This document shows, in pieces, positions 11,326 to 31,351 of a stretch of DNA of 64,000 nt; position 1 is the stretch's first letter; each line of letters begins with the position of its first letter. Under the pieces are notes generated by a model. That model ran no database searches, was not told where the DNA came from, and saw nothing but the letters and a program-made list of their open reading frames with translations. The stretch lies in the NCBI RefSeq assembly GCF_014860165.1, contig NZ_JACZKG010000072.1, positions 124,001 to 188,000 on the forward strand, given 5' to 3'. Source of the DNA: Devosia sp. (GTDB lineage: Bacteria > Pseudomonadota > Alphaproteobacteria > Rhizobiales > Devosiaceae). The position numbers and the translations under genes were made by a program.

Positions 11326-12358
11326 GGGCGGGCTCCTGGACTGCGGCGAACTGCTCGGCGATATGGCAACGCGACATCTGCAGCCCGAACATCTTCTCAG
11401 GCGGCACGGTCACGTCGCAGAGCCCGGGCACCATATGGGCGCAGCGCGGATTGAACGCACAGCCAGATGGTACGCTGAACGGGTCGGGCACCATGCCCGG
11501 AATTGTCGGCAGGCGGCGGCCCTGGTCGACGCCCAGGCGCGGGATGGAACGCAGCAGGGCCTGGGTATAGGGGTGCTTGGGCGCATAGAAGATGTCATCG
11601 ACCGTGGCAGTCTCGACCATCCGGCCCAGATACATGACCGACACGCGGTCGGCGATATCGGCCACCACACCGAAATTGTGGGTGATGAAGATGATGGCCA
11701 TGCCCAGCTCCGACTGGAGCTGCTTGAGCAGTTCGAGAATCTGCGCCTCGGTGGTTACATCAAGCGCCGTGGTGGGCTCGTCCGCAATCAACAGGCTGGG
11801 ATCGCAGCTGATGGCCAAAGCGATCATGGCCCGCTGCCGCATGCCGCCCGAAAGCTGATGGGGAAAGGCATCCACCATCTGCGCCGGGCGCGGCATCTGC
11901 ACCTTGGCGAGCAGGTCGATGGCCCGCTCGCGCGCGGCGGCACGGCTAAGCCCCTTGTGCAACTGCACTGTGCGCATGATCTGCGTGCCGATGGTGTGGA
12001 CCGGCGACAGCGCCGTCATCGGCTCCTGGAAGATCATGCCGATATGCTGGCCGCGCACCTGGCGGATAGCCCGGCTGTTGCGGTCGAGCGCCGACAGCTC
12101 GTATTGCTCGCCACTGCGGGGCCGGAAGCGAATGCTGCCTTCCGGCGCCACCGCCCGCTTGGGCAGGAGGCGCATGATGGCACGCGCCGTGATGGACTTG
12201 CCCGAGCCGCTCTCGCCCACGATGCCGAGCACTTCGCCCTTGTTCACATGGTATGAAACGCCGTTGACGGCCTTTACCAGCCCTTCCCGCAGCGGGAAGT
12301 GCACATGGACATTGTCGAGTTCGAGCAGGCGCTCGGGCGGCATGGTCTGAGAAGTCAT
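11318..12358 (-). CDS. ABC transporter ATP-binding protein (DppD/OppD type)
   Basis: [46 protein letters not shown]; start refined to [16 protein letters not shown]. Confidence 0.9.
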
Positions 12359-27474: not shown

Positions 27475-27547
27475 CGGATCACGGAAGGCCTGTCAGATAT
27501 CGGTACCATCCATGCCCAGATGCCCCTTGGCGATCGCGGTGTCGAAC

Positions 27548-27778
27548 CTATGACTTTCCCAGAGCATCACGAAAGGCTTCGATGACGCGGGGATCCGGTT
27601 CGGAACGCTCGGCCTGCCCTGACTTCAGCAGCGCGACTGTCTTGGCGAGCTGATCGATATAGGCGCGGCAATGCTTGCACATGAGCAGGTGCATCTTGAC
27701 GCCGGCGCGCTGGCGCAGGGTCAGGGTGCCTTCCAGGTAATCGGTCGCGGTCTCGCTGAGTTCGCGGCAACTAAGCAT
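27548..27778 (-). CDS. Putative zinc-finger anti-sigma factor (zf-HC2/ZAS)
   Basis: 76 aa soluble protein with HLLMCKHC (HxxxCxxC), directly downstream of the ECF sigma gene. Confidence 0.82.
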   Translation of the reverse strand: MLSCRELSETATDYLEGTLTLRQRAGVKMHLLMCKHCRAYIDQLAKTVALLKSGQAERSEPDPRVIEAFRDALGKS

Positions 27779-27868: not shown

Positions 27869-28495
27869 TCAAGAGTTTCCCATCAGCGCTTCCAGTGCTG
27901 CCCGGATGCGGGCGCGCCCACGATGCAGCAGGATGCGATGGTTGGCTTCGCTGACCTCCAGGATAGCGCAGGCTTCCTCGGGAGAAAGACCTTCGAGATC
28001 ACGCAGGGTGACCACGGCGCGCTGATTGGCCGGCAGCGTTTCGAGCACGGCCATGGCATGTGCGAGCAGTTGCTTGCCACCCACGATGCGTTCCGGGTTG
28101 ATCTCGGACCACCGCCCCGGTGGAGATAGCCAGGAGCCGTCGCCCGAAAACCGATCGGGATCGACCGCCGGGTCATTATAGCCCATGTCCGAGAACGACA
28201 CCGAGCGACCGTTGCGCTTGGCCTTGGCGCGGGCGATGTTGGCGAGAACGGCGAACGTCCAGCTCTTGAGGGATGAGCGCTCCTCAAACCGCGCTATGCC
28301 CGATATGAGCGCAAGCCAGGTATCCTGCACCGCTTCTTCCGCCGCTGCGGGATCGCGCAGGAATGTCCGGGCAAAGGCCAGCATGGACTTTTGTTGTTCG
28401 GCCACGAGCTGGCGAAAGGCCTGCTCGTCTCCGCGCTTCAGCGCCTGGATCAATGCCCGCTCGTCGCGCCCGGACCCAGCAGCGCCCAAAACCAT
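27869..28495 (-). CDS. ECF-type RNA polymerase sigma factor
   Basis: Region 2 AEEAVQDTWLALISGIARFEERSSLKSWTFAVLANIARAKAKR; region 4 LPANQRAVVTLRDLEGLSPEEACAILEVSEANHRILLHRGRARIRAALE; start refined from 28630. Confidence 0.93.
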   Translation of the reverse strand: MVLGAAGSGRDERALIQALKRGDEQAFRQLVAEQQKSMLAFARTFLRDPAAAEEAVQDTWLALISGIARFEERSSLKSWTFAVLANIARAKAKRNGRSVSFSDMGYNDPAVDPDRFSGDGSWLSPPGRWSEINPERIVGGKQLLAHAMAVLETLPANQRAVVTLRDLEGLSPEEACAILEVSEANHRILLHRGRARIRAALEALMGNS

Positions 28496-28553: not shown

Positions 28554-28579
28554 TTCGCAGGATTGCGACCGGCGGTTAC
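28554..28579 (-). promoter_or_regulatory. Candidate ECF autopromoter GTAACC-N16-CGAA upstream of the sigma gene
   Basis: Minus strand GTAACC (28579-28574), 16-nt spacer, CGAA (28557-28554). Confidence 0.7.
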
Positions 28580-28770
28580 AGAAATGTCTCCTGATCTGTA
28601 ACGCTGACTGCTGCCGACGGACGTGAGCACATGGGGCCGATCAGCACTCCTCGGTCCCTTTCCGTCACCGGTATCGTCCCTTCGCCGCGCGCAGATTGTT
28701 CGTGTGGCCAGGCGTCCATTCGTGCGCTTCGCCGCTTCGATCTGCTCACTATTCTGTGAAGAGCCACGTC

Positions 28771-28797
28771 GTAACGGTAATGCCCGTCAACCGAACT
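28771..28797 (+). promoter_or_regulatory. Candidate ECF promoter GTAACG-N15-CGAA upstream of the DUF2282 gene
   Basis: Plus strand GTAACG 28771-28776, CGAA from 28792; 50 bp before the ATG at 28847. Confidence 0.65.
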
Positions 28798-28846: not shown

Positions 28847-29140
28847 ATGAACCGTCGGACCTCGCTCGCTCTCGCCGCCTCGCTGCTCACCGCCGTCGCC
28901 GGTCTGTCCGTGCAGGGCGCTGTCGCTCAGGACGCCACCGAAAAGTGCTACGGCGTTGCCCTTGCGGGCCAGAATGACTGCGCCGCCGGCCCCGGCACCA
29001 CCTGCGCCGGCACATCTGTCATCGACTACCAGGGCAACGCCTGGAAGGCAGTTCCGGCAGGAACCTGTCTGACCATGTCCTTTGAAGGCGACCGCATGGG
29101 CTCGCTTGAAGCCCTCGATCGCGACCTGCCCCAGGCCTGA
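28847..29140 (+). CDS. bufA: DUF2282 protein, bufferin-type RiPP precursor (BufA1-like)
   Basis: Signal peptide plus [46 protein letters not shown] with 4 Cys. Confidence 0.88.
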
Positions 29141-29211: not shown

Positions 29212-30081
29212 ATGGACGCACCGCACCTTCCCCCACGCGCCGGTCTGGGACTCAAGCCCCAGCACTATGCCGAGATTCTTGAAAGCCGCCCCGATATCGG
29301 ATTTTTCGAGGTACACGCCGAAAACTATATGGGTGACGGGGGACCACCGCATCGGTACCTCGCAGCGATCGTTGATCGATATCCGCTCTCGCTGCATGGT
29401 GTCGGCCTGTCGATCGGCGGCGAGGCTCCGCTCAACCGGGACCATCTGCGCCGCCTGCGGTCATTGGTCGACCGCTACAAGCCACAATCGTTTTCCGAGC
29501 ATCTGGCCTGGTCGTCGCATGAGGAGACAAGCCTCAACGACCTGCTGCCGCTGCCCTATACCAATGCCACGCTGGACCGGGTGGTCGCCCATGTCGAAGA
29601 GGTCCAGCAGGCGCTGGGCCGCACCATGCTGCTCGAAAACCCGTCCACCTATGTGCTGTTCGCCGAAAGCACGATCGACGAGATCGATTTTCTGGCGGCC
29701 ATCGCCGAACGGACGGGCTGCGGGCTGCTGCTGGACGTCAACAATGTCATGGTCTCCTCGGTCAATCACCGGCTCGACCCCTTCACCTATGTCGAGCGCT
29801 TCCCCGTGCATGCTGTGGGCGAGATCCATCTGGCCGGCTATGACGAGACCACCGACGCCGCTGGCGAGCGGCTGCTGATCGATGCCCATGCCTCGCGGGT
29901 CAGCCAGGACGTCTTCGCGCTCTTTCGGCATACGCTGGGCCGAACAGGACCGGTGCCGACGCTGGTGGAGTGGGACAATAACGTGCCCGCCTTTTCGGTG
30001 CTGGCGGACGAGGCGCGCATTGTCGATCTTGCCATCACGGAGGTCTCCGCTCGCGGCGACCGCCAGGAGCGCGTTGCATGA
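29212..30081 (+). CDS. bufB: DUF692 multinuclear non-heme iron oxidative enzyme (MNIO, BufB-like)
   Basis: GLSIGGEAPL, MLLENPSTYV, GLLLDVNNVMV, GEIHLAGYDE, TLVEWDNNVPAF. Confidence 0.93.
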   Translation: MDAPHLPPRAGLGLKPQHYAEILESRPDIGFFEVHAENYMGDGGPPHRYLAAIVDRYPLSLHGVGLSIGGEAPLNRDHLRRLRSLVDRYKPQSFSEHLAWSSHEETSLNDLLPLPYTNATLDRVVAHVEEVQQALGRTMLLENPSTYVLFAESTIDEIDFLAAIAERTGCGLLLDVNNVMVSSVNHRLDPFTYVERFPVHAVGEIHLAGYDETTDAAGERLLIDAHASRVSQDVFALFRHTLGRTGPVPTLVEWDNNVPAFSVLADEARIVDLAITEVSARGDRQERVA

Positions 30082-30836
30082 CGATCGGGTCCGTTCGTCA
30101 GGCAGACTTTGTCGCCGCGCTGGTCGACCCGGCAAGGGCGGTACCATCAGGCATCGTCTCCTACCGCGGCGACAGCGACACCAAGCGCTTCGCGGTCTAT
30201 CGCAACAATGTCCATGTCGGACTGGTTGGCGTGCTGGCCGCCAAGTACCCGGTTTGTGCGCAGCTGGTGGGCGAAGAGTTTTTCACCGTCATGGCGCGCA
30301 TCTATGTGGCCGACCACAAACCCACCTCACCCATCATGATGCAATATGGTGCCGATTTCCCTGCCTTTATCGCCGACTTCGCCGGCGCGCGCTCGGTGCC
30401 ATATCTTTCCGACATGGCGGCGCTCGAGGAGGCATGGAGCATCGCGTACAATGCGGCAGATGACAGCCCGGCCGGCTTGGCCGAGATCGCTGCGATCGAT
30501 CCGGAAGTCTTGCCGGACCTGACTTTGAAGCCCCATGCGGCGACCGGCCTGCTCCGATCGGACTACCCGATCGGCTCCATCTGGTCCGCGCATCAGGCGC
30601 CGGGGGTAGCCGTTCGGGCGGGCGCAGAGGCCGTATTGATCACGCGGCCTGCACTGGACGTGAAAGTGACGGTCATCCCCACCGCAGATGCTGTCTTTGC
30701 GCATGACCTGCTGCAGGGCTCGGCTGTCGGCGACGCAGTGGAGCGCACACTGATCAGCCACCCCGAATTTGATTTCGGAAGCGCCTTGGTGGGGCTTTGT
30801 TCCCTTGGCGCATTTTCCCAACCGGCGTTGACGTAG
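30078..30836 (+). CDS. bufC: DUF2063 partner protein of MNIO (BufC-like)
   Basis: ATGA overlap with bufB; FAVYRNNVHVGLVGVLAAKYPVCAQLVGEEFF. Confidence 0.88.
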   Translation: MTIGSVRQADFVAALVDPARAVPSGIVSYRGDSDTKRFAVYRNNVHVGLVGVLAAKYPVCAQLVGEEFFTVMARIYVADHKPTSPIMMQYGADFPAFIADFAGARSVPYLSDMAALEEAWSIAYNAADDSPAGLAEIAAIDPEVLPDLTLKPHAATGLLRSDYPIGSIWSAHQAPGVAVRAGAEAVLITRPALDVKVTVIPTADAVFAHDLLQGSAVGDAVERTLISHPEFDFGSALVGLCSLGAFSQPALT

Positions 30837-30850
30837 AAAGCAGGCTCATC

Positions 30851-31351
30851 ATGCTGCAGAAAATTGGAAGTCTCTGTCAGGCTGCGGATCGGCTGATTGC
30901 GGCCATCCCCCACTCCATTAGCCTCCTGGTCTTGCGCGTGGCACTTGCCATTCCGTTCTGGCGCTCTGGCATGACCAAGTGGGACGGATTTCTCAATCTC
31001 TCGAGCGGAGCGCGCTACCTGTTCGAGCAGGAGTTCAAGCTCCACATCTTCGGGCAAGCCATAGCCTATCCGTTTCCCCTCACTGCTGCATTTCTGGCAG
31101 GCCTAGGCGAGGTCGTGCTGCCAGTGCTGCTCGTGCTGGGCCTGGGCACCCGATTTGCCGCGGCGGGCATTCTGCTCATGACCTTGGTGATACAGCTGAC
31201 CATTCCCGATGGTCTGATCAACTTCCATTTGCCCTGGGCCGCCATGGCGCTCGCGCTGATGGCCTTTGGCGGCGGACGGCTATCTGTCGATGCCCTCGCA
31301 ATGGGGATGATGCGGCAGACGCCAGCCCAGCGCGCACTCCACCCCTTGTGA
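30851..31351 (+). CDS. DoxX-family membrane protein
   Basis: LVLRVALAIPFWRSGMTKWDGF, LGLGTRFAAAGILLMTLVIQLTIPDGL; follows bufC. Confidence 0.88.
   Translation: MLQKIGSLCQAADRLIAAIPHSISLLVLRVALAIPFWRSGMTKWDGFLNLSSGARYLFEQEFKLHIFGQAIAYPFPLTAAFLAGLGEVVLPVLLVLGLGTRFAAAGILLMTLVIQLTIPDGLINFHLPWAAMALALMAFGGGRLSVDALAMGMMRQTPAQRALHPL

Follow-up and report, generated by a model that had tools for sequence, protein, structure and literature searches.

Bufferin operons are metal-binding-peptide operons, and it is already known that they can stand under ECF16 control beside SigF-NrsF. In Caulobacter crescentus (sigF-nrsF/CC3254-3257), the sigma gene adjoins a DUF2282-DUF692-DUF2063-DoxX operon and promoters of the type GTAACC-N16-CGAA, the sigma-F motif of this species, precede both the sigma gene and the operon (Kohler 2012, PMC3511200). 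The same four-gene operon in Sinorhizobium meliloti (RpoE7-EcfR7/SMb20530-27) is preceded by the ECF16 promoter TGTAAC..GCGAAT (PMC6180224). The consensus for the ECF16 group is (T/C)GTAAC-N17-CGAA, and the Brucella system BcrS-AbcS-BcrXQP constitutes a hypochlorite response (PMC8315932).

The locus described here lies in a 64,000-nucleotide stretch of Devosia DNA, the whole of which is referred to as the window. It contains a complete bufferin (Buf1) operon, comprising the DUF2282 precursor, MNIO maturase, DUF2063 partner and DoxX genes, next to an ECF sigma factor gene (Table 1). In C. crescentus the adjacent sigma factor is SigF with NrsF and in S. meliloti it belongs to ECF16, whereas the Devosia operon adjoins a different ECF sigma factor, labelled sigma-Z in this analysis, with a zinc-finger anti-sigma factor, and SigF is encoded elsewhere. 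The promoter type is familiar and the regulatory arrangement is unfamiliar. The best explanation, to which we assign a probability of roughly 0.6, is that SigF would act in trans at the bufA promoter P3 and probably also at P1 upstream of sigma-Z, with sigma-Z acting at P2 following a deletion.

Table 1. Features of the sigma-Z/bufABCD locus, in window coordinates.
Feature	Position	Strand	Description
Second junction	27491..27528	.	Far side of the anti-sigma gene; ~4.5 kb missing relative to G079
anti-sigma-Z	27548..27778	-	76 aa; zf-HC2 33.6 bits; NCBIfam NF052368 58.5 bits
sigma-Z	27869..28495	-	ECF sigma factor, 208 aa; Sigma70_r2, Sigma70_r4_2
P1	28579..28554	-	GTAACC-GCCGGTCGCAATCCTG-CGAA, N16; ECF16/sigma-F-type, upstream of the sigma-Z gene; exact match
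Inverted repeat	28575..28602	.	GTTACAGA-N12-TCTGTAAC; made up of the P1 and P2 -35 elements standing back to back, by direct reading
P2	28597..28622	+	TGTAACG-N15-GGAC; sigma-Z-type; ~225 nt upstream of bufA
Junction	28636..28640	.	Left aligns with the sigma side and right with the bufA side of G029, where 7.3 kb lie between
Palindrome	28746..28759	.	TCAC-N6-GTGA, TCACTATTCTGTGA; candidate operator, 11 nt before the -35 of P3
P3	28771..28795	+	GTAACG-GTAATGCCCGTCAAC-CGAA, N15; sigma-F-type promoter of bufABCD
bufA	28847..29140	+	Bufferin precursor, DUF2282, 97 aa; PF10048 84 bits
bufB	29212..30081	+	MNIO maturase; NF050167 386 bits, over cut-off
bufC	30078..30836	+	DUF2063 partner protein; PF09836
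bufD	30851..31351	+	DoxX-family membrane protein; PF07681

Predicted promoters between sigma-Z and bufA

The intergenic region is predicted to hold three ECF promoters of two classes. An earlier note on this DNA had described GTAACC-N16-CGAA on the minus strand upstream of the sigma gene and GTAACG-N15-CGAA on the plus strand about 50 bp before bufA. The first is present exactly as claimed (P1) and the second, P3, was confirmed with its end 51 nt from the bufA ATG. The SigF-type motif given in the note is likewise correct, being that of Kohler 2012 (PMC3511200) and agreeing with the ECF16 consensus (PMC8315932). Read with its preceding T, P1 is TGTAACC-N16-CGAA; it lies 58 nt from the sigma-Z ATG (28495), giving a predicted 5'UTR of ~52 nt. 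Both P1 and P3 match (T/C)GTAAC-N16/17-CGAA at promoter distance, and P2, on the divergent arm, matches the sigma-Z-type pattern TGTAACG-N15/16-[ACG]GAC.

GTAAC-N15..18-CGAA occurred three times in the 64-kb window against 0.36 expected, a number that 0/100 shuffles reached. A genome-wide scan with the slightly narrower GTAAC-N15..17-CGAA, which the same note had proposed, gave 33 matches in the 4.46-Mb genome. Given this rarity, two such motifs in one 351-nt intergenic region are far above chance. The third window match, GTAACC..CGAA at 11758..11732 (-), has a spacer one base longer and is probably due to chance. No sigma-70-like promoters or terminators were found in the intergenic region, nor was any terminator-like site seen between P2 and bufA.

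GTAAC[C/T]-N16-CGAATGG was found upstream of the orthologous sigma gene in three close Devosia species (loci L032/L041, L033/L044 and L034/L042), where the spacer sequence differs, and GTAAC..CGAA was absent before sigma-Z in the more distant Devosiaceae orthologues. A P2-type site occurs on the divergent arm of 7/10 Devosiaceae sigma-Z orthologues, the window included, and in the relatives the gene that it faces encodes either a CDP-alcohol phosphatidyltransferase or a DUF6789 membrane protein. In other phyla, 23 regions upstream of genes for sigma-Z relatives gave 15 sites of GTAACG-N15/16-[ACG]GAC, a pattern framed after inspecting the homologues, in 10 regions against 0.16 expected. Such sites frequently stand back to back in the stretch that separates the sigma gene from a divergent one, and GTTAC..GTAAC pairs equivalent to the P1/P2 repeat are found there; none of the 23 regions contained GTAAC..CGAA. 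The GTAACG..[ACG]GAC pattern was not seen in the Streptomyces relatives. Genome-wide, TGTAAC-N16/17-VGAC had seven matches in the Devosia genome, P2 being the sole one that looks correctly placed.

Sigma-Z is distinct from SigF

Membership of sigma-Z in ECF16 (SigF) was ruled out by its 25% identity to the SigF of this genome and by the lack of NrsF: an NrsF/DUF1109 six-helix membrane anti-sigma factor was not found in the sigma-Z operon. The partner protein has H-x3-C-x2-C within MHLLMCKHC, a zf-HC2 domain over the cut-off and no evident membrane domain; its short zf-HC2 domain with this motif would place it among the ZAS-type zinc-binding anti-sigma factors. It resembles the RsrA-type zinc-binding anti-sigma factors (e.g. 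SigR-RsrA) in being short and carrying H-x3-C-x2-C, although the similarity is weak (TIGR03988, 21.8 bits vs a cut-off of 62.5).

Sigma-Z was detected in 10/136 genomes of the family at the threshold used and in 0/384 genomes of other Alphaproteobacteria at E<=1e-38. Outside Devosiaceae, most of its closest relatives belong to other phyla, and those at 40-50% identity occur in Acidimicrobiaceae, Dormibacterota, Acidobacteria, Planctomycetes and others. No motif published for the sigma-Z group was found in the literature searched. Judging from a dN/dS of ~0.06 against orthologues, sigma-Z is under strong purifying selection, which suggests that it still has a target, bufABCD being the obvious one.

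The SigF-NrsF pair of this genome

The single NrsF of the genome is encoded on contig C5 together with sigF (185 aa). GTAACC-N16-CGAA stands before sigF, and a divergent GTAACG-N16-CGAA precedes the gene for a 106-aa methionine-rich secreted protein, on an arm that also carries genes for a cytochrome b561-like protein and a molybdopterin oxidoreductase. Across 47 Devosiaceae sigF loci (three duplicates), the exact GTAAC..CGAA motif was present on the auto arm of 45 and the divergent arm of 46. By gene content, C5 was identified with the Brucella BcrS-AbcS/BcrXQP type of locus (PMC8315932), with which it shares an ECF16 sigma-NrsF pair, a divergent Met-rich peptide, b-type cytochrome and molybdo-reductase, and back-to-back GTAAC..CGAA promoters; the Brucella locus differs in that no bufferin operon adjoins it. 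Elsewhere in the Devosia genome (L008, L021, L026), scan matches lie a short distance before two MsrA genes and farther, ~160 nt, before one MsrB start, and these genes are likely part of the SigF regulon. Msr genes are a theme of ECF16 regulons, which the MsrA/MsrB sites of this genome match.

The bufA promoter and its sigma factor

A sigma-F-type motif was found before bufA at 35/50 Devosiaceae bufA loci, at -71 to -101 from the ATG (chance ~0.005). Its occurrence was strongly associated with NrsF (33/37 loci in NrsF-positive genomes vs 2/13 in NrsF-negative genomes, p=2e-6), the loci being non-independent and the co-occurrence mainly a between-genus pattern: genera g1, g5, g6 and g15 have both motif and NrsF, and genera g4, g9, g12, g13 and g16 have neither. 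The association with sigma-Z was not significant (12/13 loci with vs 23/37 without, p=0.08), and those 23 bufA loci keep the motif in genomes without sigma-Z. Scoring of each promoter as F minus Z, using F training sites chosen by exact pattern, gave +12.6 bits for P1, -16.6 bits for P2 and +1.2 bits for P3. The last margin is small because CGAAC contains GAAC, so that the assignment of P3 rests on phylogeny, which points to an old, ancestral sigma-F (ECF16) promoter of bufABCD.

The earlier note had assigned both arms to one sigma factor, that of the neighbouring gene. The first part holds in so far as both arms carry sigma-F/ECF16-type motifs that a single sigma factor could fire. The neighbour is probably the wrong one, given its distance from SigF, a zf-HC2 anti-sigma factor rather than NrsF, a bufA motif that follows NrsF and not sigma-Z, and a canonical sigF-nrsF on C5; in addition P2, a promoter of the adjacent sigma factor's own type, had been overlooked. 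Autoregulation through P1 is possible but is not the better reading.

In its full form this alternative holds that sigma-Z itself reads GTAAC..CGAA, autoregulating via P1 and driving bufA via P3, which would account for the perfect motifs on both arms and the adjacency of the genes, CGAA and CGAC differing by one base. We consider it unlikely, since the bufA motif is independent of sigma-Z, NGAC sites but none with CGAA were seen for the relatives in other phyla, the distant Devosiaceae orthologues lack the motif before sigma-Z, and the same genome encodes a canonical SigF with the exact motif. Two NrsF-negative genomes carry the bufA motif. G126 is 84% complete and NrsF is present in sister species. 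G100, a 96%-complete assembly, has sigma-Z and an F-type bufA motif, and a search of it for SigF/NrsF found none; it would fit sigma-Z reading the bufA motif, unless there is an assembly gap. The bufA promoter of G029 also ends in a sigma-Z-like -10. What drives P1 is the least certain step in the scheme with SigF at P3, as sigma-Z may use both CGAA and CGAC.

A palindrome upstream of sigma-F-type promoters

A palindrome with the consensus TCACG-N4-CGTGA was found in 32/35 sigma-F-type bufA promoters (0.01 expected), no more than 45 nt before the -35 and mostly about 4, 11 or 15 nt from it; in 33/35 Met-rich-peptide promoters it precedes the -35 by 4-5 nt. It is usually not adjacent to the -35 of sigF itself and is absent from P1 and P2. 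Rhizobiaceae bufA promoters are also preceded by the palindrome, among them that of S. meliloti BL225C, in which the ECF16 promoter has the sequence reported for Rm1021 (PMC6180224); this inverted repeat, observed in BL225C in the present analysis, is a further likeness between the S. meliloti and Devosia operons. Across the class, the exact composite of palindrome and ECF16 promoter occurred in only 3/385 genomes, and the other palindromes outside Devosiaceae were confined to Rhizobiaceae bufA promoters, often in a variant form.

In genera without SigF-NrsF (L138, L143, L177-L180), the GTAAC motif is absent from bufA and several loci keep TCAC-N6-GTGA ~118-137 nt upstream, a pattern that suggests SigF-independent regulation of bufA.

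The palindrome is apparently new to the literature. Its presence 4-15 nt before the -35 of nearly all sigma-F targets suggests a second DNA-binding protein in ECF16 regulation; a dimeric co-regulator binding the palindrome would be a simple guess, and none was named in the literature searched.

Juxtaposition of sigma-Z and bufA

Alignment with related genomes located two junctions around the sigma-Z genes. The window up to 28636 corresponds to G029 L104 3541-3876 and from 28640 to L104 11188-11549; past the anti-sigma gene, the window up to 27490 corresponds to G079 L113 up to 2035 and from 27529 to L113 from 6491. The genes lost at 27491-27528, which follow the anti-sigma gene in relatives, encode SDR, fatty-acid-hydroxylase-like, TVP38-like and pyridine-nucleotide-disulfide-reductase-like proteins. 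Sigma-Z and bufA occur in the same orientation at distances of 5.1 kb in G050, 7.7 kb in G029 and 1.6 kb in G027, with intact or remnant genes between them; in G050 and G029 a single contig carries both. The DUF6789 and CDP-alcohol transferase genes were not found in the window's genome, in searches without a positive control. P2 stayed on the sigma side of the junction and P3 on the buf side, and because ~7 kb between sigma-Z and bufA are missing, P2 now reads toward bufABCD. It appears that sigma-Z reached the bufA operon through P2 after the intervening genes were lost.

The G029 locus has features of its own. An nrsF-like gene (L104:10578-11180, -) adjoins bufA with no room for sigF beside it, making it an orphan anti-sigma gene, and another sigF-nrsF lies on contig C25. 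Its bufB (L104:11761-12627) contains an in-frame TGA and the bufA promoter ends CGAC, not CGAA. Given a second buf operon in G029, this locus is probably a decaying copy.

Loss of the ancestral targets of P2, its distance of ~225 nt from bufA and the lack of a P2-type promoter at most Devosiaceae bufA operons would also fit a bystander role for sigma-Z, in which SigF at P3 alone drives bufABCD and P2 is a non-functional remnant left behind when the divergent genes were lost. This is more doubtful again than a sigma-Z that reads CGAA, as sigma-Z and its anti-sigma factor are intact with strong purifying selection, the consensus of P2 is still perfect and no other plausible sigma-Z promoter was seen in the genome. 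An assembly error joining two loci, in a draft of 87 contigs with 3% contamination and an arrangement unique among the 10 sigma-Z genomes, is very improbable because both flanks match related Devosia, the distances in G050 and G029 (5-8 kb) and G027 (1.6 kb, remnant genes) form a graded series, and the lost genes were not found elsewhere in the genome.

Regulatory model and implications

Under the preferred reading, with SigF at P3 and probably P1 and sigma-Z at P2, envelope oxidant or metal stress would release SigF from NrsF; the pair encoded on C5 would then serve P3 in trans, and P1 would fire as well. As P1 is of the sigma-F class, SigF would probably raise sigma-Z. Thiol or metal stress would release sigma-Z from its cytosolic zinc-finger anti-sigma factor and P2 would fire. 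P2 would be the cognate divergent promoter of sigma-Z, which in relatives is predicted to drive the DUF6789 membrane protein and other genes, and deletion of these former genes would have left it reading into bufABCD. If P1 is SigF-driven, the bufferin operon would be the target of a feed-forward loop. The motifs and their conservation, the missing genes, the real sigF elsewhere and the purifying selection on sigma-Z are read from the genomes, and it is from sequence that we infer the sigma-promoter pairings and the stress signals. A broader proposal can be made only tentatively: two unrelated systems, the membrane-sensed SigF-NrsF and sigma-Z with its cytosolic zinc finger, may meet at a single bufferin operon in a deletion-made feed-forward loop, the divergent promoter of sigma-Z having captured bufA, and the ECF16 target promoters of these bacteria may carry a fixed-distance palindrome for a co-regulator.

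This look-alike arrangement with a different sigma factor is a warning against pairing promoters with the nearest sigma gene. A second DNA-binding protein at the palindrome would concern the ECF16 control of both bufferins and hypochlorite-defence peptides, and the sigma-Z/bufA locus would be an example from nature of regulation rewired by a deletion.
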